Positions 6,316-20,879 of a stretch of 20,960 nt of DNA are shown here, in pieces. The stretch's first letter is position 1. Every line of letters begins with the position of its first letter. The DNA lies in IMG/VR virus record IMGVR_UViG_3300046777_002546, positions 1-20,960 of that record. One strand, given 5' to 3'. The notes beneath the pieces were generated by a model that made no database searches, was not told the DNA's origin, and was given only the letters and a program-made list of their open reading frames with translations. The stretch comes from a virus. The translations under genes were made by a program, and so were the position numbers.

Positions 6316-6333
6316 CGGATCAACGGAGGCTTT

Positions 6334-7248: not shown

Positions 7249-7259
7249 AGGAATTAAGT

Positions 7260-7406
7260 ATGCCTCAAATTGGTACTATTGCGATTAGTGATAATGTAAA
7301 TACCCAAGCTATTATTGGCTTGCTCAAGCAAGATCCAAAGATTATTATTGGTAAGGAGCAAGTATCTGAAGATGGAACTAGATATATCCCAATAGAAAAA
7401 AATTAA
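7260..7406 (+). CDS. Unrecognised 48-residue protein
   Basis: A short ORF 11 bases after the UV endonuclease stop, with AAAGGA (7247-7252) as ribosome site. The product looks like a compact strand-helix-strand unit (IGTIAISDNVNTQAIIGLLK). Its end is 1 base from the next ATG. No family is recognised. Confidence 0.5.
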   Translation: MPQIGTIAISDNVNTQAIIGLLKQDPKIIIGKEQVSEDGTRYIPIEKN

Positions 7407-7407
7407 T

Positions 7408-7554
7408 ATGAGTGCATGGCTAATAGCATTAACCGGAGTGGTCTACTTGTATGTTGCTTTAGAACAAGGATACAAGGGTAATATTGGTATGCTAATAGCT
7501 TATCTTGGATATGCTTTTGCTAATGTTGGCTTGTATATGTTAGCATCAAAATAA
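7408..7554 (+). CDS. Small two-helix membrane protein
   Basis: A 48-residue ORF with hydrophobic segments at about residues 4-19 and 27-46 joined by a short polar loop (EQGYKGN), the pattern of a membrane hairpin. It is 1 base from the preceding stop and 10 bases before the next gene, in the operon of the UV endonuclease. No family is named. Confidence 0.55.
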   Translation: MSAWLIALTGVVYLYVALEQGYKGNIGMLIAYLGYAFANVGLYMLASK

Positions 7555-7564
7555 GGAGTAGAAT

Positions 7565-7783
7565 ATGAAAGAACCGGAGAGAACACCATTAGACCCAACT
7601 ACACCCAGGGCTAAAAAAGTTACACCTATTCCTATGCGTAGTCAATTATATCCAGAAGCTATGACAGACGATATTTACTATCCAGATTCTGATTCTGTGT
7701 ATACCCCGATCAAAAATAACTTGGATAAAATTAACAAAGTTTTGGATGAGATTTCTAATGAAGATTCTGAAAACAGCAATTAA
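7565..7783 (+). CDS. Unrecognised Pro-rich 72-residue protein
   Basis: AAGGAG (7554-7559) provides a good ribosome site upstream of ATG 7565. The product has a Pro/Thr-rich, probably disordered N-terminal half and an acidic C-terminal helix (NNLDKINKVLDEI). There is no membrane segment and no recognised domain. Its end overlaps the start of the deaminase-like gene by 26 bases. Confidence 0.5.
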   Translation: MKEPERTPLDPTTPRAKKVTPIPMRSQLYPEAMTDDIYYPDSDSVYTPIKNNLDKINKVLDEISNEDSENSN

Positions 7784-8258
7784 ACTTTCATATGAAAGAT
7801 TCGTTCCAAATATCTATCAAAGACGCTATCACTTCGCTATAGCATTTGATGGCAATAAACCTGTTTGTCTCAGCCAAAACAACCCGATTAAGGTTAATGC
7901 CAAGGCATTTAGAATGGGTCAGAAATTTAATATTCCTACATACAAGGAGTTTCCGTACAGTCATGCTGAATCTCATCTTATTTCTCAATTACTTGATAGG
8001 TATAATTCCATTGATTCTAATTGGAGCATTGTTGTTGTACGAATTGGAAGAGATGGAAGAATGAGGCTCAGTAAGCCTTGTGTTAATTGTGCTAAAATTT
8101 TAAATGCAGTTGGATTGAATGATATTTACTGGAGTTTGGGCGACAATAATTTTGAAGATAGTGATGGTGATCAGATAACAATAGATAGTGATTACTTTTT
8201 TAGATATGCTAAAGGTAAATTTTATGCTAAGAACAAGAACTCATTATTGGTCATCTAG
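7758..8258 (+). CDS. Cytidine/deoxycytidylate deaminase-like zinc protein
   Basis: The product (166 residues from ATG 7758; an in-frame ATG at 7746 is also possible) has both signature elements of the cytidine deaminase superfamily. These are HAE at residues 69-71, within SHAESH, and PCVNC at 107-111. They provide the zinc ligands His69, Cys108 and Cys111 and the catalytic Glu70... Glu71 as the proton shuttle, with 35 residues between the motifs. A dCMP-deaminase role feeding ThyX with dUMP is attractive but not shown: the rest of the protein does not let me assign a nucleotide, nucleoside or RNA substrate. The start choice is uncertain, and the end overlaps the next gene. Confidence 0.65.
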   Translation: MKILKTAIKLSYERFVPNIYQRRYHFAIAFDGNKPVCLSQNNPIKVNAKAFRMGQKFNIPTYKEFPYSHAESHLISQLLDRYNSIDSNWSIVVVRIGRDGRMRLSKPCVNCAKILNAVGLNDIYWSLGDNNFEDSDGDQITIDSDYFFRYAKGKFYAKNKNSLLVI

Positions 8259-8973
8259 TAAATTTGCTGACTGGATTAGGGGAGAACAGAAACCCTTTGC
8301 TTTAGAATGGGACGCATGGGATGACTATTATAGTGATCTAAAGAAAAGAAAGCCTGTCAGATATTGGTTTACAGAAAAATTTCTCAAGAAACTACAGAAC
8401 ACACTATGTTTTCCGTATGATGTTTATAGAGAAGTTAAGTTTTACATTCGTAATAGGTGGATAGACAAAACCCATTTTCTTAAAACCGGATTAAGGCCGG
8501 GACATTACTATGAATTTGATCATAGGATGATGCACGGTCTATTTAATGAATTGGTTGATTTTGTAGAAATTGAACTCGCTCATAATATGTCTTGGAAAGA
8601 TAGCAAAAAATACAAATTCAAAAATGGTCGCTGTATTGATGCCGCTTACGATTACTTTAAGTGGGCCAATAATCTGAAACAGAAAAATAAGGATGGTAAA
8701 CGTGTTTTGAGCGAACAAGCAAAGTCTAGCCGTAAAGTACAAAAGCTTTATGAATGGTGGAAAAATAAAAGACCAAATAGACCTAGCCCAATGGAAAAAA
8801 GTGGTTGGGCTGAAATATATGATACGATGGAATCAAGCAATTTTAAGATGAAGGCTCCAAAAGGATGTCATAAGCATTATTTAAAGCTTCTACAAATAGA
8901 AGAAGCCTATGATAAAGAGGACGAGGATATGATGATAGAGCTTATTAAAATTCGCCGCCACCTGTGGACTTAA
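8224..8973 (+). CDS. Conserved phage-type protein of unknown function
   Basis: I start this at ATG 8224 (LRTRTHYWSSSKFADWIRG) rather than 8188, giving 249 residues and a 35-base overlap with the deaminase-like gene. The protein is rich in Trp, Tyr, Lys and Arg. It has HYWSSSKFADWIRG near the N-terminus, an aromatic basic middle (YREVKFYIRNRWIDKTHFLKTG), then GLFNELVDFVEIELAHN and a Lys-rich C-terminal half. From memory this organisation resembles a hypothetical protein common in uncultured phages. No catalytic motif is apparent. It ends just before the promoter at 8988. Confidence 0.7.
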   Translation: MLRTRTHYWSSSKFADWIRGEQKPFALEWDAWDDYYSDLKKRKPVRYWFTEKFLKKLQNTLCFPYDVYREVKFYIRNRWIDKTHFLKTGLRPGHYYEFDHRMMHGLFNELVDFVEIELAHNMSWKDSKKYKFKNGRCIDAAYDYFKWANNLKQKNKDGKRVLSEQAKSSRKVQKLYEWWKNKRPNRPSPMEKSGWAEIYDTMESSNFKMKAPKGCHKHYLKLLQIEEAYDKEDEDMMIELIKIRRHLWT

Positions 8974-8987
8974 TGTTTAAAGAACTG

Positions 8988-9016
8988 TTGACAGAACGCC
9001 GATAGTGTGATATAAA
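8988..9016 (+). promoter_or_regulatory. Sigma70-like promoter
   Basis: TTGACA (8988-8993) and TATAAA (9011-9016) have a 17-bp spacer in the gap after the 249-residue gene. CGATAGT begins 6 bases after the -35 element exactly as in the promoter at 6287, and the bases just before the -10 also match. Transcription should begin near 9022, leaving about a 30-base leader. Confidence 0.83.
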
Positions 9017-9052
9017 TGGGACTCTTGGCATCATTACCCATCGGAGCGTTAT

Positions 9053-9271
9053 ATGGTCTGCAACTATTGCAAAGGTTCGATTCCAGAGGGACGGGTTGAA
9101 TTTCTTACTGAATATAATCGTCCTATGGTTTGTATTGAATGTTCTTCGGAAGAACGTAGAGTGGGCTATATGGACTGGAATCATAAAACAGCCCCAAGTT
9201 TAGTTATGGTTGCCGCTAATGCTAAAGAAACTATTCGTATACTTGATAGAGCAAATAGGAGAGCAAGATGA
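9053..9271 (+). CDS. Small CxxC zinc-knuckle protein
   Basis: The 72-residue product has CNYC (residues 3-6) and CIEC (27-30), a four-cysteine set about 20 residues apart that fits one zinc finger. A positively charged helix follows at the end (KETIRILDRANRRAR). CGGAG (9042-9046) is the ribosome site 6 bases before ATG 9053. It is the first gene after the promoter at 8988. A DNA-, RNA- or protein-binding role is plausible but unproven. Confidence 0.65.
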   Translation: MVCNYCKGSIPEGRVEFLTEYNRPMVCIECSSEERRVGYMDWNHKTAPSLVMVAANAKETIRILDRANRRAR

Positions 9272-9486
9272 AACAAATGACATGGCTTGATTTGTATAGC
9301 TATCTTTATAATCAAGCAAATAACATTGAGAATATTGGTAAGTTCGACTGGAATACTCCGGTTCTTATTCATGATGCTGAAACTGGTAATGAATATGATT
9401 GTGATACATATATATTTGACGATAAAATGACTCTTACTATAAATATGGACTCAATTTTTGCAGAGAAAGGGCAGGGACACTCTTGA
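9268..9486 (+). CDS. Unrecognised 72-residue phage-type protein
   Basis: Coupled to the zinc-knuckle gene by ATGA. The sequence MTWLDLYSYLYNQ, then FDWNTPVLIHDAETGNEYDCDT, looks like a small alpha/beta protein of a type I have seen in phage genomes, with unknown function. Its TGA overlaps the next ATG by one base (TGATG). Confidence 0.6.
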   Translation: MKQMTWLDLYSYLYNQANNIENIGKFDWNTPVLIHDAETGNEYDCDTYIFDDKMTLTINMDSIFAEKGQGHS

Positions 9487-9731
9487 TGCACACTATTGAA
9501 ATAGAAAGCCTATTGTTTAAGCAGGTTGAGAAGCCTAAGCATTTTTTGATGACACGTATTATTAATGTCTATGAAAATAGATATCGTATTAATGTCTATA
9601 TTCAAGTAGAGGAAGAGGGTTTGATTAAAAAGCGTATTAGTGCTAGTTATTTTTGTCACTATTTTCCTGGTAAGCTAGAAATTATACCAGATACAGATAA
9701 GAAGCCAGATGACTTAAAAAGGAAGTTTTAG
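9486..9731 (+). CDS. Unrecognised 81-residue protein
   Basis: The frame extends one codon upstream with TTG, but ATG 9486 in the TGATG overlap is the better start. The protein is mostly beta-patterned (TRIINVYENRYRINVYIQV), with a Lys/Asp-rich tail. No family is recognised. The next ATG follows the stop directly. Confidence 0.6.
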   Translation: MHTIEIESLLFKQVEKPKHFLMTRIINVYENRYRINVYIQVEEEGLIKKRISASYFCHYFPGKLEIIPDTDKKPDDLKRKF

Positions 9732-10154
9732 ATGCAAGAAATACTAGAGCTGTCACTATATTCTAAGTATCCAGAAATGTTTTCTCTAAAAGATAATAAG
9801 ACAGAACCAATAGGAGCTTATGGAATAGAATGTGGAGATGGATGGTATCAGATTCTACAGTCTTTTTGTTTTATTGTTGCTCAACACGAATTAAACATAC
9901 AACAAAATAATCACTATTTAACCGAAAATAACAAAGAAACTGTTTCATATGAAAAATTTAGGTTCACTCAAATAAAAGAGAAATTTGGAGGATTAAGAAT
10001 TTATTACTATGGAGGAGATGACTATATCCGGGGCTTGATTCGTATGGCAGAATGTTGGAGTTTTAACACTTGCGAAAAATGTGGAGAAAGAGGAGAGCCT
10101 GACAAGAGCGGTTGGATAACCACCATCTGCAAAAGTTGTAAGGGAAAAATATAA
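9732..10154 (+). CDS. Conserved phage-type protein with C-terminal zinc ribbon
   Basis: The 140-residue product has a GIECGDGWYQIL segment (31-42) and a FTQIKEKFGGLRIYYYGG segment in the middle, a signature I associate with a hypothetical protein found in many phages and bacteria. It ends in two CxxC pairs (CEKCG, then CKSCK) about 20 residues apart, a probable zinc ribbon. Function is unknown. It starts right after the previous stop and its TAA overlaps the next ATG. Confidence 0.65.
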   Translation: MQEILELSLYSKYPEMFSLKDNKTEPIGAYGIECGDGWYQILQSFCFIVAQHELNIQQNNHYLTENNKETVSYEKFRFTQIKEKFGGLRIYYYGGDDYIRGLIRMAECWSFNTCEKCGERGEPDKSGWITTICKSCKGKI

Positions 10155-10423
10155 TGTGGAGTTATTATCTTGTACAAGAATTAATAATGAATCAGACATG
10201 GATTGATGAAAATGGTAATAATTGGTCTGCTGGAAGAATAGAATGTTATGATGATAAAAATTCTTATGGCTATTCTAATAGAGAATATTCTTTGATCATA
10301 GACAGTAAAGATTGGAATAAGTTTGATGCTTATTTAAGATCAATTAATACAAATGATTTAAAAACCCTAGAAGAATTAATAGTCATGAGCGCTCTGCCTA
10401 TCGTTCAATTTCAGAATCGCTAA
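10154..10423 (+). CDS. Unrecognised 89-residue protein
   Basis: ATG 10154 is joined to the upstream stop by TAATG. An internal ATG at 10187 is an alternative start. The protein has an aromatic N-terminus, then WIDENGNNWSAGRIECYDD and a C-terminal helix (DLKTLEELIVMSALPIVQ). No family is recognised. It is the last gene before the promoter at 10434. Confidence 0.55.
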   Translation: MWSYYLVQELIMNQTWIDENGNNWSAGRIECYDDKNSYGYSNREYSLIIDSKDWNKFDAYLRSINTNDLKTLEELIVMSALPIVQFQNR

Positions 10424-10433
10424 AGAAAACCTC

Positions 10434-10461
10434 TTGACAGAGACGATATGTATGGTATGCT
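10434..10461 (+). promoter_or_regulatory. Sigma70-like promoter
   Basis: TTGACA (10434-10439) and TATGCT (10456-10461) are separated by 16 bp in the gap after the 89-residue gene. The spacer contains CGATA. Transcription near 10468 would give a leader of about 32 bases before the ribosome site AGGAG (10486-10490). Confidence 0.75.
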
Positions 10462-10499
10462 TAGAGCATAACGATAACCAATCACAGGAGAATTGATTT

Positions 10500-10910
10500 A
10501 TGGCTAAGGGTCAAAAAACTTGCGAAAAGTGCGGCACTACAACTGGTCCGCGTGCTTATATGTGCAAGAAGTGTAACACTCCATTTGTTTTTAAGGCTAA
10601 GAGCAAGGAAGCGAAGAATACCAAGATTATCCGGGATTTTAATTGGAAAGAACTGGTAAAGGGTGATCGCATTAGAGTGGCTGGAGGCCCATATTTTGTC
10701 AGTCATGGAGAGTTCATTCCAATGGGCTATAGAGGTCGTTTTGTTGTTCATGCGATTGACGCAAATGGTATTCAAGCATGGGGTTTGGACAAGCATAGTG
10801 GATTCGCACATATTTATATGGGTGGAGATATTCAGAACAAAGAAACTGGTGTTTGGAAAACTAAGCATAAGTTGATGAAGCTTAAACAAAAAACAGAGGT
10901 TGTGTCGTGA
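10500..10910 (+). CDS. Zinc-ribbon protein of unknown function
   Basis: The 136-residue product opens with two CxxC pairs, CEKC at 8-11 and CKKC at 22-25, a small zinc ribbon. A Lys-rich linker follows, then a C-terminal beta-rich domain (GDRIRVAGGPYFV..., GYRGRFVVHAIDANGIQAWGL). The arrangement is common in phage proteins that bind nucleic acids, but no specific function is visible. AGGAG lies 9 bases before ATG 10500. The gene ends in a GTGA overlap with the next. Confidence 0.65.
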   Translation: MAKGQKTCEKCGTTTGPRAYMCKKCNTPFVFKAKSKEAKNTKIIRDFNWKELVKGDRIRVAGGPYFVSHGEFIPMGYRGRFVVHAIDANGIQAWGLDKHSGFAHIYMGGDIQNKETGVWKTKHKLMKLKQKTEVVS

Positions 10911-11191
10911 GTCTTACAAACGAGCAGAAACATCAGATAAATAAGTTAATTGATCATAGAGATCAGATAGTTGATGCTCTTTTTCATATAGAGCGTATAC
11001 TAAAAACCTATTTTCCTGAAGAATTTGAAAGAGCAATACAATTCTATTTGCCTCAAATTACAACGGCTCTTTATGAAGATCAAAAGTGGCTAAGTAGAGG
11101 AGAATATAGTATGCAAAATACTATTGATAATTTACTGGCTCGGTGTAGAGATAAAGAGGATTCCCAAAAGGGGGTCAAAAAATATTTTTGA
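10907..11191 (+). CDS. Unrecognised 94-residue helical protein with a GTG start
   Basis: The start is GTG 10907 in a GTGA overlap with the upstream stop, with AGAGG about 6 bases upstream. The product is mostly helical (KLIDHRDQIVDALFHIERIL, then FERAIQFYLPQITTALYE) with a Lys-rich tail. No family is recognised. Confidence 0.6.
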   Translation: MSLTNEQKHQINKLIDHRDQIVDALFHIERILKTYFPEEFERAIQFYLPQITTALYEDQKWLSRGEYSMQNTIDNLLARCRDKEDSQKGVKKYF

Positions 11192-11206
11192 TGTAAAGAG
11201 ATAATA

Positions 11207-11563
11207 ATGGAAAAATACTCAATCATAGATTTGCAAGGATATGCCGTCGCAATGAGAGAAGGTGCTGCAAAATCTTTTGCAGAAAACTACAGTGAAAATT
11301 TGGATAATTTTATTAGTATCAACCAAGTTATTTCTTTAATCAAAAAACATAGTCTGGGATTAGATGAGGATGATCATCTGATTATTACAGAAACGATTTT
11401 TGACAACATCTTTAACGAAATTAGAGAGTGGTTATATGGTGTTGGTTTGGCTAGGTTAGCGTCTAGAGGTTATCTTGAATGTGCCTGGGACGAAAAGACC
11501 AATGAGATGGTTTTTTGGTTATCTGATAAAGCACAAACCAGTATTCCTAACAAGCCTTCTTAA
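11207..11563 (+). CDS. Unrecognised 118-residue protein
   Basis: A helical, acidic soluble protein with no motif I can name. The segment EIREWLYGVGLARLASRGYLECAWDEKTNEMVFWLSD resembles a small winged-helix-like or helix-hairpin unit, though this is only a pattern impression. It starts 15 bases after the previous stop (AAAGAGAT upstream) and is followed 2 bases later by the next ATG. Confidence 0.6.
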   Translation: MEKYSIIDLQGYAVAMREGAAKSFAENYSENLDNFISINQVISLIKKHSLGLDEDDHLIITETIFDNIFNEIREWLYGVGLARLASRGYLECAWDEKTNEMVFWLSDKAQTSIPNKPS

Positions 11564-11565
11564 TA

Positions 11566-11736
11566 ATGTCAAATGAAAAAAGAGAAAAAATCATAGATCT
11601 AAAAATCAAAATAGATGACTTAAAAGAATACTTATATTCAGACACTTGTAGAAGTTGCGGAGAAATTGCTCTACAACTAGATCAATATATTCAAGAATTA
11701 TCAACACTTTTAAATATCGATGACACTAATAGTTAA
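11566..11736 (+). CDS. Small helical protein with one CxxC pair
   Basis: A 56-residue ORF beginning 2 bases after the preceding stop. It has two helices separated by CRSC (28-31); the second, IALQLDQYIQELSTLL, resembles the ELD-containing helix of Spo0E-like proteins and the size is also similar. That resemblance is weak and the family is not expected outside Firmicutes. The end overlaps the next gene by 17 bases. Confidence 0.5.
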   Translation: MSNEKREKIIDLKIKIDDLKEYLYSDTCRSCGEIALQLDQYIQELSTLLNIDDTNS

Positions 11737-12241
11737 TTTGTTTGGTGGTCCCGGTGTTGGCAAAAGCACATTAGCCGCTGGAACTTTTTTCTGTTTAAAA
11801 CAACAGAAAATCAGTTGTGAATTAGTTACAGAATATGCGAAAACTCTTACATGGGAAAATAGGCACTCGACCCTTGAGTGTCAACCATATGTTTTTGGCA
11901 AACAACTTTATAGTTTAGAAGTTTTGATAGACAAAGTAGATGTTATTATTACAGACTCTCCTATATGTTTGAGTCTTTTCTATAAAGCAGATAGATATCC
12001 TCCGTCTTTTTCTCAGTCTGTTATTGATATATTTAATAGTTTTCAAAATACCAATTACTATATTGAAAGATGTAACGATGACTATGATTCATCTGGACGA
12101 TTATCCAGTATAAATATGGCTAGAAAGATAGATGAAAAAATCTTAACTTTTCTTGAAGAGTTTTATATTTCATACGAAAATATTGCTAGAAAATTTGAGA
12201 GTGCAGAATACATAGCCAATCAAGTGATGTCTAGACTATGA
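11720..12241 (+). CDS. P-loop NTPase/kinase-like protein
   Basis: The 173-residue product has a Walker A motif, GGPGVGKST (residues 9-17), close to the N-terminus. A hydrophobic strand ending in DSPI (VDVIITDSPI, about 73-82) fits Walker B. The layout resembles the AAA_28 (NadR/Ttd14-like) group of small kinase-like P-loop proteins, often found in phages. The C-terminal half (NYYIERCNDDYDSSGRL) would hold the lid. It probably binds or phosphorylates a nucleotide or metabolite. The substrate cannot be assigned. It ends in ATGA with the SPOUT methyltransferase. Confidence 0.8.
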   Translation: MTLIVNLFGGPGVGKSTLAAGTFFCLKQQKISCELVTEYAKTLTWENRHSTLECQPYVFGKQLYSLEVLIDKVDVIITDSPICLSLFYKADRYPPSFSQSVIDIFNSFQNTNYYIERCNDDYDSSGRLSSINMARKIDEKILTFLEEFYISYENIARKFESAEYIANQVMSRL

Positions 12242-12774
12242 ACGTAATAGATAGCTTAAAAAATTATTCGATTCCAGATATTAAAGAATATTGTTGCAGT
12301 AGGACAATCTGTTCTAGTGTTGCTATGGTTAATATTGGTGGAGATTTTAATTTTAGTACAATGGTTAGAAATGCTAACTTTTTTGGATTTAGGAACGTAT
12401 ATCATATAGCCCCAAAGAAAAAATGGGATAAAAGGGGCAGTGTCGGAACATATCACTACACTCCTATTCATCACTATAATAATTTTGATAGTTTCTTTGA
12501 AGAGATGCACAAACAAAACTGTCGCACCGTTGCGATAGAAAATAATATTCCTGAGTTTGAAGATAAAACCATTAGTCTATATTCTTATAATCAGTATGTG
12601 GAAAATACTGTTTTTATATTTGGAGAAGAGAATTCTGGATTAGATAGTCAAATTCTTCAACAAGTAGACAGTATTATTACGATTCCGGGTTATGGAAGTG
12701 TAAGATCATTAAATGTTGGTACTGCAAGTGGTATAGTTATGGGGTGGCAGAGATACCTTATGGAAAACTCTTGA
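12238..12774 (+). CDS. SPOUT (TrmH/SpoU family) RNA 2'-O-methyltransferase
   Basis: The three SpoU motifs are all present: NFSTMVRNANFFG (38-50), with Asn38 and Arg44; FGEENSGL (128-135); and IPGYGSVRSLNVGTASG (149-165). Together they form the SAM-binding knot. The 178-residue length fits a minimal SPOUT domain without an RNA-binding extension. Members methylate ribose 2'-OH in tRNA or rRNA, and here the RNA target is unknown. A tRNA or rRNA methyltransferase next to a phage tmRNA gene is suggestive of control over translation, but this is inference. ATG 12238 overlaps the upstream stop. Confidence 0.88.
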   Translation: MNVIDSLKNYSIPDIKEYCCSRTICSSVAMVNIGGDFNFSTMVRNANFFGFRNVYHIAPKKKWDKRGSVGTYHYTPIHHYNNFDSFFEEMHKQNCRTVAIENNIPEFEDKTISLYSYNQYVENTVFIFGEENSGLDSQILQQVDSIITIPGYGSVRSLNVGTASGIVMGWQRYLMENS

Positions 12775-12798
12775 CATATCAAAAACATCTCTTACAAT
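12771..12798 (+). promoter_or_regulatory. Sigma70-like promoter upstream of small membrane genes and tmRNA
   Basis: TTGACA (12771-12776) and TACAAT (12793-12798) are separated by 16 bp. The -35 overlaps the end of the methyltransferase gene. Transcription would start near 12805. The CGATA element of the other promoters is absent. Read-through could also supply the tmRNA. Confidence 0.7.
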
Positions 12799-12829
12799 AC
12801 ATGAGTCATGCAACCCACAAGGAACTGTA

Positions 12830-13069
12830 ATGAAAATATCTCCTTATATTGTTCTGTTAACCGGCTTATTGATATGTTCAATGGGTTTCAATATTTTATA
12901 CAGCATAGACAATAAGAGATTACTTTATAGAGTCCAAAAACTTGAGGCTGGTCCGGCCAGAGGTTTATTTCTTGAACCAGAGATACCAAAACCTAATATG
13001 TCTGATGAAGAAATGAATGAACTACTAAAAGAAATTATGAAAAAAATTCTCAGAGAAAGAACAGTTTAA
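12830..13069 (+). CDS. Small protein with N-terminal membrane anchor
   Basis: AAGGA (12819-12823) is the ribosome site before ATG 12830. The 79-residue product has a hydrophobic segment at about residues 6-24 and then a charged, mostly helical C-terminal part (DEEMNELLKEIMKKILRER), a single-pass anchor with a cytoplasmic or periplasmic tail. No family is recognised. It is the first gene after the promoter at 12771. Confidence 0.6.
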   Translation: MKISPYIVLLTGLLICSMGFNILYSIDNKRLLYRVQKLEAGPARGLFLEPEIPKPNMSDEEMNELLKEIMKKILRERTV

Positions 13070-13070
13070 T

Positions 13071-13250
13071 ATGACTTCCATTAGTCAAAAAAGACTGGAT
13101 AAACTTAAAAAAAGAGGTAAATTAAGAGATAGGGCTGAGTTATGGATAGATAAACATAACCATAAAATGGAATTTATAAGAACAATATCTTCTTTGATTG
13201 GTCTGTGTATGTCTACAGTAATTATGTTAAAAGTATTTGGCTGGCTATAA
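13071..13250 (+). CDS. Small basic protein with C-terminal membrane helix
   Basis: The ATG follows the upstream stop by 1 base. The 59-residue product has a strongly basic N-terminal half (KRLDKLKKRGKLRDR) and one membrane helix at about residues 37-56. Its stop lies 6 bases before the tmRNA 5' end. No family is recognised. Confidence 0.5.
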   Translation: MTSISQKRLDKLKKRGKLRDRAELWIDKHNHKMEFIRTISSLIGLCMSTVIMLKVFGWL

Positions 13251-13251
13251 A
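13246..13251 (+). promoter_or_regulatory. Possible -10 element of the tmRNA gene
   Basis: TATAAA (13246-13251) lies over the stop of the upstream gene, 5 bases before the first G of the tmRNA (13257), so transcription could begin right at the RNA's end. No good -35 is seen: the 17-bp position holds TATGTT. Read-through from the promoter at 12771 with 5' processing by RNase P is the alternative. Confidence 0.35.
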
Positions 13252-13256
13252 AATAT

Positions 13257-13608
13257 GGGGGCGTAAAGGTTTCGACTACAATAGCAGATTTATATTGGCA
13301 AGTAGTAGTTGATCTGGTGGCTACTATAAAACCAGATTAAACGCTTTAACTGGCGCAAATCAGTTAGCACTTGCTGCTTAATAAAAAGCAGTAACGATTT
13401 TAGGAAGCAATGAAGGTAGCGTCCAAAAAATCGTCGTAAAAGCCTTCGGCTGCTAGAATTGCCAACGGGTTCTAGCCTGAGATTAGTTGGTACGGAAAGA
13501 TGAATGTTGTTTGTTCTTTAATCTTTCATAAAACTTATGAACAACCTAAACTTGTAGAAGATATAATGAACTACTGATAGGACAGGGGTTCGACTCCCCT
13601 CGCCTCCA
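13257..13608 (+). ncRNA. ssrA: Transfer-messenger RNA (tmRNA)
   Basis: The RNA starts GGGGGCGTAAAGGTTTCGAC, the classic tmRNA 5' end, and finishes with a T arm and acceptor strand. GGGGGCG (13257-13263) pairs with CGCCTCC (13601-13607), with a G3.U70 wobble that identifies alanine tRNAs, and A 13608 is the discriminator. The T stem AGGGG/CCCCT holds loop TTCGACT. CTACAA (13276-13281) pairs with TTGTAG (13552-13557). Pseudoknot 1 is visible (13303-13308 with 13321-13326; 13312-13318 with 13331-13337), and stems of further pseudoknots follow the tag. CCA is not encoded, so it must be added. tmRNA releases stalled ribosomes with SmpB; no SmpB gene was seen here, so the host's is probably used. 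Confidence 0.96.
13352..13381 (+). other. tmRNA tag-peptide reading frame
   Basis: After AACT, GGC is placed as the resume codon because Bacillus subtilis tmRNA has the same AACUGGC context. The frame then reads GANQLALAA and stops at TAA 13379-13381, followed by a second TAA. With the alanine carried by the tmRNA the tag would be A-GANQLALAA. The end, ALAA, is the form seen in many bacterial tags and recognised by ClpXP. GCA 13355 as resume codon would shorten it by one residue. Confidence 0.75.
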
Positions 13609-13623
13609 CTTAAAGCATATTAT

Positions 13624-14871
13624 ATGAACAGAAGACATTTTTTATCACATTTAGCAGCATCTTCTTGTCTGGCATCTTCTTCAACATATTTTGCTAATTC
13701 TATATTAGCTAATACTGCTGATACGACAAAAAAAACCAAGTCTGTCATTCTGCTATGGATGGGCGGCGGTCCTAGCACCATTGACATATGGGATTTAAAG
13801 CCTGGGAGTCCAACTGGGGGGCCATTTAAACCCATCTCAACGTCTGCTGACGGCATTGAAATTTGTGAGCATTTACCTCTTATGTCAAAACAAATGCATC
13901 ACATGAATATTGTACGAAGTATGAGTACAAGAGAAGCAGATCATATGAGAGGACGCTATTATTTACATACTGGCTATGTTCCTAATCCAAATATAGAACA
14001 TCCAAGCTATGGTTCTGTTGTATCTCATGAATTAATATCTAGTATTCCAGAGCTTGACATTCCTCCATTCGTTAGTATCGGGAGTCCAAGTGTAGGTCCA
14101 GGTTTTTTAGGAGCTACTTATGCTCCATTTGTGGTTAATTCTAATGGGACAGTTCGTGATTTAGATATGGGTATAGAGCCTAACAGAGTTAATCAAAGAT
14201 TACAAATGCTCAAAACAATAGAAGACAAATTTATAAAAGAAAATCGTGGAGAGTATGCCAATGACCATGCCAAGCTTTTAACCAAAACAGTAAAGTTGAT
14301 GAGTAGTTCTCAGATGGATGTTTTTAAAGTGTCCAAAGAACCCAAGCAAATTCAGGAACGATATGGAAATACAGGGTTTGGCAGAGGTTGTTTGATGGCT
14401 AGGCGTCTAGTAGAAATAGGGGCGCCATTTATAGAAGTAGATCTTGGTGGGTGGGATAACCATCAAGATGTATTCCCAACATTGCAAAATCAAAAACTTC
14501 CCGAAATGGACAAGGCTATGAGTGCTTTAATAGAAGATTTAAATAACAGAGGGTTGTTGGATAGCACAGCAATAGTATGGATGGGAGAATTTGGACGCAC
14601 ACCAAATATTAATGGAAATGCCGGTAGAGATCATTGGGCAAGAAGTTGGAGTGTTGTTGTTGGAGGGGCTGGTTTTAAAAAGGGAGTAATTGTTGGTGAG
14701 ACGAGTAAAGATGGTAAAGAAGTAATTTCTGAACCGTATACCTCTCAAGACTTAATGGCTAGTGTACTAAAATCTATAGATATTTCATTAGAAACTATAT
14801 TCACTGCCAAAAATGGTAGACCCATGAAAATTGCCAATAATGGTAAAGTGATTCATGAATTATTCTCATGA
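13624..14871 (+). CDS. DUF1501 family protein with Tat-like signal
   Basis: This 415-residue protein matches DUF1501 (alkaline phosphatase superfamily-like fold). It has GGGPSTIDIWDLKPG (47-61), GGWDNHQD (275-282), GEFGRTP (321-327), GRDHWARSW (334-342) and GGAGFKKGVIVGET (347-360). The N-terminus NRRHFLS followed by a small hydrophobic, Ala/Ser-rich stretch looks like a twin-arginine (Tat) signal, so it is probably exported to the periplasm. In Planctomycetes these genes are very numerous and often beside DUF1549/DUF1553 genes; neither is present here. The exact reaction is unknown. No ribosome site is clear, and it starts 15 bases after the tmRNA. Its C-terminus is coupled by ATGA to an endonuclease VII gene. 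Host acquisition is likely. Confidence 0.9.
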   Translation: MNRRHFLSHLAASSCLASSSTYFANSILANTADTTKKTKSVILLWMGGGPSTIDIWDLKPGSPTGGPFKPISTSADGIEICEHLPLMSKQMHHMNIVRSMSTREADHMRGRYYLHTGYVPNPNIEHPSYGSVVSHELISSIPELDIPPFVSIGSPSVGPGFLGATYAPFVVNSNGTVRDLDMGIEPNRVNQRLQMLKTIEDKFIKENRGEYANDHAKLLTKTVKLMSSSQMDVFKVSKEPKQIQERYGNTGFGRGCLMARRLVEIGAPFIEVDLGGWDNHQDVFPTLQNQKLPEMDKAMSALIEDLNNRGLLDSTAIVWMGEFGRTPNINGNAGRDHWARSWSVVVGGAGFKKGVIVGETSKDGKEVISEPYTSQDLMASVLKSIDISLETIFTAKNGRPMKIANNGKVIHELFS

Positions 14872-15215
14872 CTAGAAAAATTTGTTCGTACTGCGGTAAA
14901 AGAAAAAATAAAGCTAGTTTTCCCAAACATAGTATGTACAAAGACAATCTAGATAGCAGATGTAGAAAATGTGTAAAAAAACAATCGAAGGTGAGAAACA
15001 AATTACACAAAAAGGCACCACCAAAACCAGAAGTCTGTGAGTGTTGCGGAAAAATACCATACAAATGGTGCTTAGACCATGATCATGAAGATAATAGCTT
15101 TAGAGGATGGCTATGTGAACCATGTAATACTGGGATAGGCAAGCTCGGAGACAACTTTCAATCTGTAGTTAACGCTATGAATTACTTTTTATCGAGACCC
15201 AAAAGATATGAATAG
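14868..15215 (+). CDS. Endonuclease VII-like HNH nuclease
   Basis: The 115-residue product carries the endonuclease VII signature: CECC (57-60), LDHDH (69-73) and FRGWLCEPCNTGIG (78-91). The four cysteines bind zinc and the Asp/His residues form the active site. An additional N-terminal CSYC...CRKC pair (6-9, 32-35) makes a second zinc site, common in phage HNH proteins of this type. T4 endonuclease VII resolves branched DNA before packaging, and similar proteins also act as HNH nickases. Coupled by ATGA to the DUF1501 gene. Confidence 0.87.
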   Translation: MTRKICSYCGKRKNKASFPKHSMYKDNLDSRCRKCVKKQSKVRNKLHKKAPPKPEVCECCGKIPYKWCLDHDHEDNSFRGWLCEPCNTGIGKLGDNFQSVVNAMNYFLSRPKRYE

Positions 15216-15470: not shown

Positions 15471-16778
15471 ATGACTCATCATTTTGATTATGTTTGGGGG
15501 ATGGTTCGGGATCTTCGTGCTACTAGTAGCACTATTGATAAACAGGGCATTATAGAGGATTATTGCAACCATAACAGTGAAGCGGCAAATTTCACGAAGA
15601 AAATTTTGCTTTATACATATCATCCATTGTGGCAATATAATGTTACCAGCGATAATCTAAAGAAAAAGTCCTCTCTTAAAGGTAAGACTCATGACACTAT
15701 TTTTAAGCTTTTGGATGCTCTTAACTCTCGTTCTATTACCGGCCATGATGCTATTGGTGCTGTTAATAGTTTCATTGATCAGCATGAAGAATACGAGGAG
15801 CTGATTCATTGTATTATTGATAAGGATCTAAAAACCCGTGCTGGTGATAAAATTATTAATAAGGCCATACCAGATCATATACCAGAGTTTAGTGTCGCTT
15901 TGGCAGATAAGTATGATCCTAATATTGTAGACTGGAAGGATGGCTGGTATGTTAGTCGGAAGATCGATGGTGCTAGATGTATTGCTGTTGTTGACAATAA
16001 TGGTAACGCTTCTTTTTATTCCCGCACGGGAAAAACTTTTGAAACTTTGGATATTGTTGCTGGTGGCATTAAGGCTCTCGGTATATCTAATGTAGTATTC
16101 GATGGTGAGTTGTGTCTTGTTGATGAAAACGGCAACGAAGATTTTCAAGGAATTATGAAACAACTCAAAAAGAAGGATCATACCATTCCTAATCCATCCT
16201 ATAAGATTTTTGATATGATTAGTCATGACGAATTTTATACTAAAAAAGGTGAGTCTAATAAGACTTATTCTCATAGATTGAATAATCTCAAAGAAGTTAT
16301 GAAGAATAACTCTTGCCCATGTCTCAGCGTTCTTGAACAAGACAGGGTTAAGAATGACGATCATTTTGCAGAGTGGGTGGCAAAAGCCAATGAAAATTCT
16401 TGGGAAGGATGTATGCTTCGTGCAGACGAACCATACAAGGGAAAGAGAAGCAAAGATTTGCTCAAGTATAAAAGTTTTAGCGATGATGAATACGAAGTAG
16501 TTGATGTAGAGATGGGTCCGTTTCGATATGTTAAAAATGGTGCAGAACATGAGGAAACCATGCTTTCCTGTGTCACTATTCAGCATAAAGGATATAATGT
16601 TAGGGTTGGTTCTGGCTTTAGTATCGAACAGCGTCAGGACTTTTACAAGCATCCCAAAAAGATTCTTGGTAAGGTGATTACGGTTCAATATTTCTCAGAG
16701 AGTAAGAATCAAGATGGCGGTCTGAGCCTTCGCTTCCCAACATTTAAAATTCTTCATGGAGTTGCTAGGACAGTATAA
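15471..16778 (+). CDS. lig: ATP-dependent DNA ligase
   Basis: The frame is open from a TTG at 15417, but the promoter and AGGAG lie between that and ATG 15471, so the latter is the start (435 residues). The active-site lysine is Lys164 in RKIDGAR (motif I), followed by FDGELC (210-215, motif III), WEGCMLR (311-317, motif IV) and LLKYK (330-334, motif V). An OB-fold C-terminal domain follows (VEMGPFRYV..., then LGKVITVQYFSES). It seals nicks using ATP and fits phage ligases in length. The N-terminal 150 residues are a helical DNA-binding part. The last base of the stop is shared with the next gene's ATG. Confidence 0.94.
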   Translation: MTHHFDYVWGMVRDLRATSSTIDKQGIIEDYCNHNSEAANFTKKILLYTYHPLWQYNVTSDNLKKKSSLKGKTHDTIFKLLDALNSRSITGHDAIGAVNSFIDQHEEYEELIHCIIDKDLKTRAGDKIINKAIPDHIPEFSVALADKYDPNIVDWKDGWYVSRKIDGARCIAVVDNNGNASFYSRTGKTFETLDIVAGGIKALGISNVVFDGELCLVDENGNEDFQGIMKQLKKKDHTIPNPSYKIFDMISHDEFYTKKGESNKTYSHRLNNLKEVMKNNSCPCLSVLEQDRVKNDDHFAEWVAKANENSWEGCMLRADEPYKGKRSKDLLKYKSFSDDEYEVVDVEMGPFRYVKNGAEHEETMLSCVTIQHKGYNVRVGSGFSIEQRQDFYKHPKKILGKVITVQYFSESKNQDGGLSLRFPTFKILHGVARTV

Positions 16779-17182
16779 TGTCTAAACCTTGGATTCATGC
16801 TAAAAATAGTGTCAAAAAATTTGGTGGACAACCAGAAGATTATTTGCCTATTCATAATCTGATGGATAGCAGCAAAGACTGTATAGGAGATAATCGTCAT
16901 AGATGTTTGACCCATAATAGTTGGTTTATCGGAGCAGACGGTCCACTTGAAAAGATTTTTGGGCCTATTATAATCAATAGTGATGGTAGAGAAGTTTCTG
17001 TAAGAGACATTGGAGAACAACATATTCTCGAAGACTTTGGAATGAAATTTATTCCTACAGCACAAGATTATTTACAAGAAATTGAAATTAAAAACTGGAT
17101 GAACAATGGCAGGGAAGGTATTCCTGATAGTTTTAAGAAGATAGAAAAAACCAAAAAATACACAACTGTTAATTTTGACTAG
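16778..17182 (+). CDS. DUF6915-like phage protein
   Basis: The 134-residue product begins KPWIHAKNSVKKFGG and contains EDYLPIHNLMDSSK, then RHRCLTHNSWFI, IFGPIIINSDGREVSVRDIGEQH and a DFG. These segments match what I remember of DUF6915, a family of phage proteins with conserved His residues and unknown function. It is coupled to the ligase by one shared base. A role near DNA replication is suggested only by neighbourhood. Confidence 0.8.
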   Translation: MSKPWIHAKNSVKKFGGQPEDYLPIHNLMDSSKDCIGDNRHRCLTHNSWFIGADGPLEKIFGPIIINSDGREVSVRDIGEQHILEDFGMKFIPTAQDYLQEIEIKNWMNNGREGIPDSFKKIEKTKKYTTVNFD

Positions 17183-17193
17183 GAGATACCATA

Positions 17194-17748
17194 ATGGTAA
17201 ATATTAAAGAAATTAAATCTAAGCTCAACGATATTCAAAAACAAATAGAGAAACTAGAAAAACAGGCACAAAAAGAAAGTTCAAAGCTGATATCTAAAGG
17301 CTTCAAAGATATTTTCAAAAAATACCCAGACCTTAAAAGTTTTAGTTGGACTCAATATACTCCATATTTTAATGATGGAGATGAGTGTGTTTTTAGCGCC
17401 CATACAGATTATATTTCTATTAATGGTTCAGAACAAGATGAAAGCACATATGAACTTAGACAATTTTTAGATGTATTACACAACCCAAAGAAAGAGATAG
17501 CAGCACTGCAAAAAAGAATAGAGGAATGTAAAAAAGAAAAATATGGCTATGGCTATCTAGAAGATGAAATCAAGCGTATAGAGACCGGCTCAATTGAAAA
17601 AACCAAAAATAGACTTGCTATTTTAGAAGATATTGGTCAAATTCTATCATCTATAGATGAGGATTGTTATAAATCTATATTTGGAGATCATGTGCGTGTC
17701 ACAGTAACCAAGGATGGTTGGTCCACTGAAAGTTATGAACATGAATAA
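17194..17748 (+). CDS. Coiled-coil phage protein with conserved central domain
   Basis: A coiled coil occupies about residues 1-38 and another about 95-145 of the 184-residue protein. Between them is SFSWTQYTPYFNDGDECVFSA, a segment I associate with a phage hypothetical protein. GGAGATAC upstream of ATG 17194 may be the ribosome site. Its C-terminal end, TESYEHE, is encoded in a 26-bp element found again 2.6 kb downstream, so the 3' end of this gene marks the left edge of an inserted cassette. Confidence 0.7.
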   Translation: MVNIKEIKSKLNDIQKQIEKLEKQAQKESSKLISKGFKDIFKKYPDLKSFSWTQYTPYFNDGDECVFSAHTDYISINGSEQDESTYELRQFLDVLHNPKKEIAALQKRIEECKKEKYGYGYLEDEIKRIETGSIEKTKNRLAILEDIGQILSSIDEDCYKSIFGDHVRVTVTKDGWSTESYEHE

Positions 17749-17750
17749 TT
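17725..17750 (+). repeat. Left copy of a 26-bp direct repeat
   Basis: The sequence starts ACTGAAAGTTATGAACATG and ends ATAATT. It includes the last codons and stop of the coiled-coil gene. The same 26 bases recur at 20362-20387 with one mismatch (A to G at repeat position 20). The two copies are 2637 bp apart and bracket the glycan cassette. Confidence 0.9.
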
Positions 17751-17780
17751 GAGTGACACTTTTAGTGTGTAATCAGGAAT

Positions 17781-17815
17781 ATACAGTGTAGATTTCTACA
17801 TTGTAGGCACTGTAT
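17781..17815 (+). promoter_or_regulatory. Hairpin in the leader of the glycosyltransferase gene
   Basis: ATACAGTG (17781-17788) is perfectly complementary to CACTGTAT (17808-17815). Inside the 19-base loop, TGTAG (17787-17791) could pair with CTACA (17796-17800), and CTAC (17796-17799) with GTAG (17803-17806), so competing small hairpins are possible. A short ACACT/AGTGT hairpin precedes it at 17756-17768. Absence of a U-run argues against a simple terminator; a leader regulator is possible. Confidence 0.45.
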
Positions 17816-17833
17816 TTCCCAAAAGGAGTTATG

Positions 17834-18919
17834 ATGAATATCGTAGACTTTTATAAGCTACATACTATAGATCCAGATTTCGATTATTATTTTTATCAAA
17901 CACAATATCCAGAAACTATTGGATATTATCAACCCTTTTGTTTAGAACATAATATTTCAGAGGAACAAAGGTTATATTATCATTATATTCTCTTTGGTCA
18001 GTCTTTTGGGTATGCTAAAAACTTATCTGAGTTTATCAAGCATAGTGTGGTTGGGGTGGATTTAAGTCAAATTCATACTCATGATATAGAAAAAATTTGC
18101 CCAATATCTGCTAATTATCTAGATTCTTATTCTATACAAACACAGAATGGCAAAAATATTGCATCTCGTAGCAGCATTGGTATACTGTCATTAGCACGAA
18201 ATTGTGCTAAAAATCTCTCAAAATCTTTGGCTAGTATACAGAAGTTAGAGTGTAAAGATTGGTATATGTTAATTTATGAAAATGACTCAACAGATGATAC
18301 GAAAGATATTTTGCGTAGCATAGATGATAATCATATCACTATTACTCATAATGATGAGGGGTCTCCTTATTTAACAGATAGGTCATCATCCAGAACAAAT
18401 AACCTGGCTAAATATAGAAATGTTTGTTTAGATTGGCTTAAAAAAAATTATTCCCATTGTGAGTATGTTATTGTGCTAGATTTAGATGCTGATCTTGGCT
18501 TTTCTGTTGATGGTATATACAATAGTATTGGTTGGTTGAATATTTTGTCAAATGCTGGTGGTATGGGTTCATATTCAATATATTTATCTATTAATAAGCA
18601 CAAAATAGTATTTGCACACTATGATTCTTTTGCTACAAGATTCAATGATTGGGAACCAACAATCAATAATATAGACATTAATAATGCATGGTTTAGACAT
18701 TGGCATCCTGTTATCGGATCAAATCCCGCACCATTGTATTCTTGTTTTGGAGGATTAGCGGTTTATAAAACTAAGGCATTGTTAAAAGGCAGGTATAGTG
18801 GAGAATTGGGGTCGGAGCATATATCTCTTCATAAAGATCTGTATAATCATGGATATAATATGTATTTAAATTCTAGTAGTAGATTTTTTGCAATCAACAA
18901 TATAGTACAGGAATCATAA
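17834..18919 (+). CDS. GT69/CAP59-like glycosyltransferase with an N-terminal YPE domain
   Basis: ATG 17834 is chosen over 17831 because AGGAG (17824-17828) is 5 bases upstream. The 361-residue product has two parts. Residues 1-70 form a domain with YPET and HYILFG, also present alone at 20601. Residues 114-361 form a GT-A-like catalytic part with IGILSLARNCAKNL, ENDSTDDT (149-156), AKYRN (192-196) and DLDAD (216-220), a probable DxD metal motif. This resembles fungal CAP59/CMT1 (GT69) transferases and their phage relatives. Donor and acceptor are unknown. The gene leads the cassette, with 85 bases of leader. Confidence 0.78.
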   Translation: MNIVDFYKLHTIDPDFDYYFYQTQYPETIGYYQPFCLEHNISEEQRLYYHYILFGQSFGYAKNLSEFIKHSVVGVDLSQIHTHDIEKICPISANYLDSYSIQTQNGKNIASRSSIGILSLARNCAKNLSKSLASIQKLECKDWYMLIYENDSTDDTKDILRSIDDNHITITHNDEGSPYLTDRSSSRTNNLAKYRNVCLDWLKKNYSHCEYVIVLDLDADLGFSVDGIYNSIGWLNILSNAGGMGSYSIYLSINKHKIVFAHYDSFATRFNDWEPTINNIDINNAWFRHWHPVIGSNPAPLYSCFGGLAVYKTKALLKGRYSGELGSEHISLHKDLYNHGYNMYLNSSSRFFAINNIVQES

Positions 18920-18920
18920 A

Positions 18921-19598
18921 ATGTCTCCAAAAGAAAAACAAGAATTAGTAAATTCGTATAAATATTGGTGGCACTCTATAGACTTTGGGGATGGAGTTGT
19001 ATCTGTTGGACAAAAAAACGCCGATATGCATCAGAAAGAAAAAATATCGTGGTTTCCAGAAGATTTTTTTATAGATAAACGGGTTTTAGATGTTGGTACA
19101 TGGGACGGTTACTATGCATTTTATGCTGAACAACAAAAAGCCGCAGAAGTTATTGCTGTTGATAAACATGTATGGACTAGACCTAATGGTAGGTCAAAAA
19201 GAGGATTCGATATTGCAAAACAATTATTAAACTCCAGAGTCAAAGACTATGTTTTAGATATAGAAGAAATGAATCCAGAATTACTAGGTAAATTTGATTC
19301 TATTATTTTTGCTGGGGTTTTTTATCATTTACAAAATCCATATAAAGCATTAGAAATTTTAGACACTTTATTAAAAGTTAATGGTAGAATAATGCTTGAA
19401 AGTACCATGAGAAATTGCGATATAGACAAACCATTATTGGAATTTCATCCTAAAAAATCATTAAATAATGATTCAACTAATTTTTGGTCTCCAAATGGAC
19501 TTTGCTTGAAATTAATGTTTGAAGAAATAGGCGATTATCGTGTCGAGTCTTTATCAGAAGGAGATAGAGGAGTTATTGTAGTCAGGAAACAATCATGA
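18921..19598 (+). CDS. CmoB/DUF1698-like SAM-dependent methyltransferase
   Basis: The 225-residue product has WWHSIDFGDGVVSVG (16-30) and VLDVGTWDGYYAF (55-67), close to the signature of DUF1698/CmoB-type enzymes (WHSIDLGDG; VLDIGxxDGYFxF). AGVFYHL in the second half also fits. CmoB makes 5-carboxymethoxyuridine in tRNA from carboxy-SAM, but many relatives methylate sugars in surface-glycan clusters. Its glycan-gene neighbours favour the latter here. ATG 18921 follows the previous stop by 1 base. Confidence 0.8.
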   Translation: MSPKEKQELVNSYKYWWHSIDFGDGVVSVGQKNADMHQKEKISWFPEDFFIDKRVLDVGTWDGYYAFYAEQQKAAEVIAVDKHVWTRPNGRSKRGFDIAKQLLNSRVKDYVLDIEEMNPELLGKFDSIIFAGVFYHLQNPYKALEILDTLLKVNGRIMLESTMRNCDIDKPLLEFHPKKSLNNDSTNFWSPNGLCLKLMFEEIGDYRVESLSEGDRGVIVVRKQS

Positions 19599-20323
19599 AA
19601 ACAATTATTATTACAGGATGCCCAAGAACAGGGACAACAGCACTAACGTCTTTGCTATATCATTCTAGCAACGCATTAGTTACTAACGAACTAGCAACTT
19701 TTCATCCCAATAAACAAGAATTGCTAAAAAACCTTAACAAACCATTGAATGAGGATAATACGAGGGCTCTGGAGTTAAAGGGTTGGAGTAAAGAACAATT
19801 ACAAGATTTTATAGACCATAAGTTTAAAGATTCTAGAATAGAATTATTTGGAGATAAACGACCAGATTATTGTTGTAATCATTATAATATGCATTATTTA
19901 ATTAAAACATATCCTGATGCATTTTTTATATTCACACATAGAGATCCTTGTGCTACTGTTTATTCATTTCTAAAACGATCACAAGATGAGCCACAGAAAA
20001 GTGCTGATTGGTATGCGGAAACAGCCGAGGAAGCTATTAATAAAATTATAAAATGGAATACTAATTGGTCTACATTATTTTATCCCAAAGTTAAAAATAA
20101 AATCATTATTAATTATGATATTTATATTAATCAACCTTTACATTTAATTAATATTTTAGAACAATTTACACAGACTAAGCTAGACATTCATCAACCAGAA
20201 AATCTATATTGTCATCCTAATCCGGATGATTTTAAGAATAAACTTACAAAAAAAGAACAAAATATTATATATACTAAGTATATGCCATTAATAAACCATA
20301 TTCAATCATTATGTACAATATAA
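19595..20323 (+). CDS. Sulfotransferase family protein
   Basis: The 242-residue protein has the 5'-phosphosulfate-binding loop GCPRTGTTAL (8-17) near its start and the 3'-phosphate motif THRDPCATVYSF (114-125), with Arg116 and Ser124, as in PAPS-dependent sulfotransferases. GDKRPDY (86-92) corresponds to the family's GDKxP segment. No membrane helix is seen, so it is probably cytosolic and sulfates a small molecule, sugar or protein. Coupled to the methyltransferase by ATGA. PAPS would have to come from the host. Confidence 0.88.
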   Translation: MKTIIITGCPRTGTTALTSLLYHSSNALVTNELATFHPNKQELLKNLNKPLNEDNTRALELKGWSKEQLQDFIDHKFKDSRIELFGDKRPDYCCNHYNMHYLIKTYPDAFFIFTHRDPCATVYSFLKRSQDEPQKSADWYAETAEEAINKIIKWNTNWSTLFYPKVKNKIIINYDIYINQPLHLINILEQFTQTKLDIHQPENLYCHPNPDDFKNKLTKKEQNIIYTKYMPLINHIQSLCTI

Positions 20324-20361
20324 CAAACTCATAATATTCTACGTGTATTCATTTCTTGTTT

Positions 20362-20387
20362 ACTGAAAGTTATGAACATGGATAATT
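20362..20387 (+). repeat. Right copy of the 26-bp direct repeat
   Basis: It matches the left copy at 17725-17750 in 25 of 26 positions. It keeps the reading frame of the gene's end (TESYEHG, then TAA at 20383-20385), though no gene is visible upstream of it in that frame. The next ATG, 20389, follows the stop by 3 bases, matching the tight packing elsewhere. Confidence 0.9.
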
Positions 20388-20388
20388 C

Positions 20389-20601
20389 ATGCCAAACTAT
20401 AGAATAGTAATTTTTGCTAATACTAAGTATCTCACACAATGCTTAGATAGAATCACAGAGTTTGATCGATTAGGCATAGATAACTTTTTTTTCTATTGTT
20501 TAGATACGAATCTATATAGTATACTACCTACAAAAAATAAAGAACTAATAGAACTAAATCAAACAATATTTCAGATTAATCTTAAAAATGTTTTGCAGTA
20601 A
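20389..20601 (+). CDS. Short ORF resembling the start of a sugar transferase
   Basis: The 70-residue product begins YRIVIFANTKYLTQCLDRI and has FFFYCLDTNLY, which looks like the first strand-helix-strand of a nucleotide-diphospho-sugar transferase. A full domain is several times longer, so this may be a truncated remnant or a distinct small protein. It starts 3 bases after the stop in the right repeat copy. TAATG links it to the next gene. Confidence 0.5.
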   Translation: MPNYRIVIFANTKYLTQCLDRITEFDRLGIDNFFFYCLDTNLYSILPTKNKELIELNQTIFQINLKNVLQ

Positions 20602-20879
20602 TGGATATTCTTGAATTTTACAAAAACAATAAAATAGATATGGACTTCGATGAGCATTTTTATGCTGCAAGATATCCGGAAACAAAAGATTTTTATCAGC
20701 CTTATTGTAAACATAATAATATAGATGATAAACATAGATTATTTTTTCACTATGCTATGTATGGAAAAAAAATGTTTTTTTATAAAAACTTAGAAGAAAA
20801 AATGCTGAAAATAAAACTAGAACAAAAAAAAAGAGGTAGGGACGATATAGATATCGATTCAATAAATTTTAATTTTTAG
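20601..20879 (+). CDS. Standalone copy of the glycosyltransferase N-terminal domain
   Basis: The first 70 of 92 residues align without gaps to the N-terminus of the glycosyltransferase at 17834: ILEFYKNNKID versus IVDFYKLHTID, and YPETKDFYQPYC versus YPETIGYYQPFC. Then come the HYAMYG and HYILFG segments. The domain recalls the YPDV...HYLxxGxxEGR repeat found next to bacterial glycosyltransferases. The tail (about residues 65-92) is Lys/Asp-rich. It starts in a TAATG overlap with 20389. A carbohydrate-binding or targeting role is possible. Confidence 0.65.
   Translation: MDILEFYKNNKIDMDFDEHFYAARYPETKDFYQPYCKHNNIDDKHRLFFHYAMYGKKMFFYKNLEEKMLKIKLEQKKRGRDDIDIDSINFNF

Follow-up and report, generated by a model that had tools for sequence, protein, structure and literature searches.

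How a complete set of sugar-modifying genes comes to lie between two copies of the end of a neighbouring gene is the question raised by the virus record IMGVR_UViG_3300046777_002546, the whole of which (20,960 bases; here the window) was analyzed. In it, genes for a glycosyltransferase (GT), a methyltransferase and a sulfotransferase (together the cassette) follow a gene of phrog_9564, a family of unknown function, that is here called the coiled-coil (coil) gene after the label given in a preliminary description of the sequence. Comparison was made mainly with G001 (IMGVR_UViG_3300044638_006750), a 232,683-bp viral contig that was the single close relative from a coil-protein search (97% protein identity). 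It appears that the three genes and one repeat copy constitute a 2637-bp insertion at the coil-gene 3' end, on the left boundary of a large phage's variable locus for sugar modification, formed by one-sided joining and followed by exchange through the flanks; we put the probability of this history at roughly two in three. Gain of the cassette is favoured over loss, by argument rather than by proof.

Repeat copies and an empty site

The genes and repeat copies concerned, together with the flanking open reading frames (ORFs), are as follows.

16778..17182, + strand: DUF6915 gene, left neighbour of the coil gene (PF21866, E 4.1e-38; phrog_8143)
17194..17748, + strand: coil gene (phrog_9564), its 3' end the putative insertion point
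17725..17750, + strand: left copy of the 26-bp repeat, the true coil-gene end, encoding TESYEHE-stop and closing the ORF 17194-17748
17751..17830, + strand: leader from the left repeat to the first cassette gene, absent from G001
17831..18919, + strand: GT (PF00535 and PF11735, both over cut-off), with an N-terminal domain common to other ORFs of the locus
18921..19598, + strand: DUF1698 (CmoB-type) methyltransferase (PF08003, 48.9 bits against a cut-off of 23.8)
19595..20323, + strand: sulfotransferase (PF13469, 59.2 bits against a cut-off of 27)
20324..20361, + strand: spacer from the sulfotransferase stop to the right repeat, without coil-gene homology
20362..20387, + strand: right copy of the 26-bp repeat, encoding TESYEHG-stop with no gene before it, putatively a remnant of a coil-gene end
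20389..20601, + strand: 70-aa ORF of the right flank, whose G001 homologue stands directly after the coil gene
20601..20879, + strand: 92-aa ORF, matching the start of a 421-aa G001 ORF up to ~20753 and then differing

The preliminary description had placed the cassette between copies of a 26-bp direct repeat with one mismatch, 2637 bp apart, and a repeat search of the window bears this out. The copies agree at 25 of 26 bases (96%), the pair (family D1) heads the list of 22 direct-repeat families found, and its score of 22 (scheme +1/-3) exceeds the maximum of 19 across 100 first-order Markov shuffles of the window. The left copy was likewise correctly identified as the true 3' end of the coil gene, in frame with its ORF, and the right copy keeps that frame with no coil-gene sequence upstream of it and with the next ATG (20389) 3 bases past its stop. 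Within the sequences searched, the 26-bp stretch is no dispersed repeat, since a 16-mer of its core (≤2 mismatches allowed) occurs once in the whole of G001 and the 26-mer, with R at the variable base, has no match in the viral-contig collection, from which records very near the window may be left out.

In G001 the coil gene runs straight into the homologue of the window from 20389 onward. The TAA-NNN-ATG spacing is unchanged, the repeat is present in a single copy and the cassette is missing. This is the cassette-free relative that had been predicted, and it displays exactly the tight gene junction that loss of one repeat plus the cassette was said to restore. Sequence to the left of the site aligns, the right copy and its downstream sequence align, and the middle is missing from G001; from the gap sizes, 2608 and -29, the net difference is 2637 bp, the length of the cassette with one repeat. 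Neither the methyltransferase nor the sulfotransferase was detected in G001 or in six further records (several of them fragments, in a search that carried no positive control), and of the GT only the N-terminal domain matches in G001, at two places. Because the right copy continues unbroken into the sequence that follows the coil gene in G001, the G001-like junction probably predates arrival of the cassette. Neither an invariant gene order among relatives nor recurrence of the repeat across the genome, which the description had named as contrary to an insertion, was observed.

Further to the right, the G001 homologue of the 70-aa ORF is split over two frames, a T run being one base shorter. 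The 92-aa ORF leaves its G001 counterpart at ~20753, past a shared N-terminal domain and soon before the contig ends, and this point is read from the alignment as a second exchange junction.

Probable flanking exchange and rival histories

Across 2301-15000 the window and G001 differ at 22 mismatched positions in 12,651 aligned. Against this baseline divergence is raised on both sides of the insert, in two tracts whose bounds were drawn after the mismatches were seen:

17301..17749, no strand: left tract, with 13 mismatches in 449 and none in 17001-17300
20361..20485, no strand: right tract, with 13 of 125 positions different, including one indel, and none in 20486-20742

Because the divergence is two-sided, the allele was probably exchanged via flanking homology and not at the repeat, which looks like a scar; i.e. 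one strain probably took a segment spanning the cassette site from a more distant phage via homology in both flanks. Insertion by recombination at a gene end, as first proposed, is supported, with the qualification that the flank divergence suggests homology outside the repeat, and not the repeat itself, as the site of the latest exchange.

The favoured history would begin with an ancestor having the G001-type junction and a DNA end that matched the coil gene on its left side but not on its right. By one-sided break repair this end would have been joined 26-27 bp before the coil stop, the incoming allele supplying an intact coil gene and the old 26-bp tail staying behind as a scar. The left copy would accordingly belong to the intact coil gene and end where the newly arrived sequence begins, and the right-copy relic would require no target-site mechanism or recombinase. 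In T4 intron homing, break repair with one-sided homology gives illegitimate junctions (PMC2988022). The alleles with and without the cassette would later have been exchanged between strains by homologous recombination in the flanks, a step that the divergence tracts support. A profile search of G001 gave a RecA-like match (65.3 bits) and no match to PF00589 (tyrosine integrase) or PF00239 (resolvase) in this possibly incomplete record, control genomes being positive in 14/14 and 10/14 cases respectively. These results are consistent with homologous recombination and speak against an integrative element.

A number of observations weigh against this history. At the left-tract sites the outgroup locus L009 agrees with the window at 8, with G001 at 2 and with neither at 3, and the outgroup L008 agrees with the window at 3 and with G001 at 2; if anything, these counts would make the G001 tract the derived one and allow a loss in G001. 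Divergent patches without a cassette difference occur at ~1001-2250 and 16001-17000, so that the tracts beside the cassette could be partly coincidental; these phages therefore seem to recombine often. Only one empty-site relative is known, no donor with both the coil gene and this cassette was found in the searches made, and no break-making enzyme or endonuclease gene was recognized among the three cassette genes.

Within 16001-17000 the 3' part of the ATP-dependent ligase gene is 8-29% different from G001 per 250 bp, against near-identity in the 5' part, and the 3' part is interpreted from this pattern as a separate exchange patch. G001 also carries an endonuclease-VII-like ORF (L005:10928-11488) at the place corresponding to window 6302-6352; the window is without it, and a few extra mismatches lie beside this place.

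The outgroup counts bear most directly on the rather unlikely history in which the bracketed cassette is the older state for both strains and was lost from G001, either by recombination or slippage between the copies or by import of an empty allele. Such repeats allow precise deletion, the G001 site is the expected deletion product, and the window is matched at 8 of 10 informative left-tract sites by L009 and at 3 of 5 by L008. Deletion between the copies alone, however, leaves the two-sided divergence unexplained, and an earlier event that joined a coil tail to G001-type downstream sequence would still be needed to make the right copy. A restored gene end on one side with an orphan core on the other is typical of attachment sites, and the copies do have this geometry; yet that they are the attL and attR of a small element restoring the gene end, served by a recombinase in trans, is very improbable in view of the lack of a recombinase among the three cassette genes, of PF00589 or PF00239 matches in G001 (where an incomplete record cannot prove absence) and of a 26-mer match in the viral contigs. 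Low odds were also given to a transposon or insertion sequence origin, there being no transposase among the three cassette genes and, among the 25 listed of 28 inverted pairs found in the window, none that links the two cassette ends.

False joining of two strains in metagenome assembly might be suspected of a 20,960-bp fragment that is patchily different from G001. This too is very improbable: the copies differ by one base, the window has no better direct repeat than the 26-mer and hence no long overlap at which a false join could have formed, none of the three genes is broken, and the sequence around both junctions is otherwise colinear. A conserved regulatory element standing by chance before two genes is a scarcely credible reading of the repeat: a weak promoter-like match does cover the right copy (20359-20386), but a promoter and terminator scan of the region found no excess over shuffles (26 promoter-like hits against a mean of 25.7), the core is single-copy in G001, the left copy encodes the end of the coil protein, whose C-terminus is found again in many of the listed relatives, and the empty site accounts for both copies.

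Structural breaks after the coil gene in related phages

Does the end of the coil gene vary in other phages as well? A search with the DUF6915 protein found 43 viral loci encoding relatives, and a coil homologue is present in 29 of the 31 records checked (the 43 loci less L007, L033 and L040-L049). Relatives of the coil protein were also found in 116 records of annotated phages, every one below 60% identity. The coil C-terminus and downstream sequence were listed for those of loci L002-L049 with a coil match on the + strand reaching query residue 170, which excluded L003, L004 and L007 (copies of G001), L008, L016 and L048 (match too short) and L010 (no match in the stretch); a C-terminus of the coil type, mostly Y-[DE]-H-[DE], is shared by many of the relatives so listed.

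Structural breaks were compared among loci L008-L049 under the same coil-match rule, together with the window and G001, in pairs sharing 4,000 or more aligned bases at 90% identity. A break at -1..+500 bp of the coil stop is found in nine of 20 near-identical pairs and in five of six groups (window/G001, L023/L026, L012/L011, L018/L019 and L020/L021, with none in L033/L031). Random placement gives five groups in some 500-bp bin with P 0.0009, an any-bin figure for a bin chosen after the data were seen and for hand-picked groups of one pair each that are not fully independent. Seven break-free within-group pairs (L024/L026, L024/L029, L026/L029, L046/L032, L046/L031, L032/L031 and L022/L021) were not counted as groups, and the L025 pairs were unused. 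On this comparison the locus after the coil gene is taken to be a recurrent exchange point.

A search for relatives with other genes between the repeats had been suggested as a check in the preliminary description. L009 (82% amino acid identity in the coil protein) has other genes at the same point: an HNH endonuclease ORF (phrog_144, E 7.1e-13) starts two bases past its coil stop. The extra 868 bp of L020 relative to L021 holds most of a homing-endonuclease ORF (phrog_655, E 7.3e-16); because the last ~93 bases of that ORF are also present in L021, L021 may carry a deletion rather than L020 an insertion. L023 has an ORF that by eye resembles that of L020, with a sub-cut-off Pfam HNH match, and in L014 and L015 epimerase-family genes lie 1.0-1.2 kb past the coil gene. 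Since HNH genes occur at this spot in relatives, endonuclease breaks are suggested as an aid to exchange here. A broader and doubtful proposal is that the phrog_9564 gene end serves diverse large phages as a conserved docking point, at which breaks by visiting HNH enzymes and one-sided repair would swap cargo, including sulfotransferase-bearing glycan cassettes, the cargo itself carrying no endonuclease.

Other arrangements were seen near coil genes. An ORF past the coil gene of L030 (9002-10240) has HNH (PF01844) and Mom (PF25680) domains, both over cut-off. A DNA-polymerase-III-like ORF of L012 (11848-14139; compare L011:10670-12562) is seemingly split at GPGRG/SAAG by an intein-like stretch absent in L011, with an extra ORF just upstream, both as judged by eye. 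One phage has three tandem coil-protein matches (L017:8437-9588).

At its other side the variable locus extends to an Ogg-HhH gene. A scan with the G001 Ogg-HhH protein (PF22175) gave 141 relatives; among the best 80, which were kept and many of which are short, the coil protein matched only in the G001 locus itself. L085, L086, L107, L108, L110 and L114 have differing ORFs before the Ogg-HhH gene, several of sugar type, and in five of these six a ligase-like ORF (recognized by eye) adjoins the stretch. Sugar-enzyme content near conserved flanks is thus variable, G001, L009, L085, L086, L107 and L114 all differing before the Ogg-HhH gene; several ORFs there are without a family match, and in L009 no sugar gene is recognized at the corresponding position. 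The window GT has homologues, 46-50% identical, in L107, L108, L110, L114 and L115 (some of which may be the same phage), and sulfotransferase matches over cut-off occur in L114 and L086, so that genes of this sort are usual cargo of the region in related phages. L107:9040-9738 and L114:6851-7582, considered as sulfotransferases, have no Pfam match and are not claimed.

The 421-aa G001 ORF has no Pfam or PHROGs match and a 632-aa G001 ORF only a sub-cut-off GT match; both are called putatively sugar-type by the shared N-terminal domain only. Sugar-type genes of the locus (e.g. window 20601-20753 and L107:7767-9050) have this domain in common and differ in their continuations, two standing in tandem in L107, L108 and L114. 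The domain may serve as a homology anchor for swapping the remainder.

Predicted function, precedents and meaning

The three enzymes named in the preliminary description are all supported by Pfam over cut-off, and all three genes are intact. The PF08003 match spans profile positions 116-263 of 315; its link to CmoB is presumed by us, and a tRNA role is not implied by the match. The sulfotransferase ORF contains GCPRTGTT and THRDP stretches, which we take to be sulfotransferase motifs, and had no match at E 0.001 among solved structures. In searches that detect mainly close relatives, the sulfotransferase and methyltransferase had none among viral contigs, where the GT gave one short match; the methyltransferase had none in the bacterial genomes searched, and neither it nor the GT, the two cassette genes searched there, had one among annotated phages. 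The exact set of three genes was not found elsewhere in the contig, annotated-phage or bacterial searches. Judged by family, the enzymes probably yield an extended sugar chain that carries methyl and sulfate groups. Their sugar transfer, methylation and sulfation would take place on glycans of the host surface or of the virion and would change recognition by other phages; the host surface is proposed from related work, with a virion glycan as the alternative target. Phage glycosyltransferases have been suggested to alter the host surface and hinder coinfection by other phages (PMC7029224; PMC2984593).

The event is of a broadly familiar kind, a repeat-bordered indel in a mosaic phage accessory locus, and precedents exist for its separate elements; no published description of this locus was recognized, as judged from titles and abstract openings. 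In Kayvirus 812h1 a unique 17-base direct repeat borders a 2-kb deletion/insertion polymorphism (PMC6445280), likewise a multi-gene presence/absence segment of ~2 kb with a short repeat and one variable base in a large phage. That phage is staphylococcal and its genes are of unknown function, whereas here the repeat is the 3' end of a gene and the cargo is glycan-modifying; divergence is also raised in the present flanks. Hypervariable islands of pelagimyophages (PMC7029224) and hyperplastic regions of T4-like phages (PMC2984593) also hold variable content, including sugar enzymes, between conserved genes. Those are host-recognition clusters with tail fibres, unlike the present locus between the DNA ligase, DUF6915 and coil genes and the Ogg-HhH gene, in which sulfotransferases occur; the term sulfotransferase has 0 occurrences in PMC7029224. 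As in homing-endonuclease loci and islands (PMC2988022; PMC10448857), relatives carry HNH genes repeatedly at one spot and markers in the flanks may have moved along with the exchange, but no endonuclease is recognized in the cassette here and the nuclease link is drawn from relatives.

As to the host, a full DUF1501 gene (PF07394, E 1.7e-101) lies at window 13624-14871. Its six best bacterial relatives, 72-76% identical, are in metagenome-assembled genomes titled Planctomycetota, Planctomycetaceae or Candidatus Kuenenia, and most of the 80 bacterial relatives kept are planctomycete, a few being titled otherwise. A planctomycete host is thereby hinted at; in the seven planctomycete genomes with the closest DUF1501, a search for the phage ligase that had no positive control gave no match. 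Because planctomycete phages are poorly known, the possible link adds some interest to a sulfotransferase-bearing phage.

The window and G001, from near-identical phages, provide a clean pair of filled and empty site in which both the scar and the exchange tracts of the flanks can be seen. They indicate that an entire set of glycan-modifying genes can be acquired or lost by a phage in a single step, with no recognized mobile-element enzyme, and that one conserved gene end may be a recurrent exchange point.

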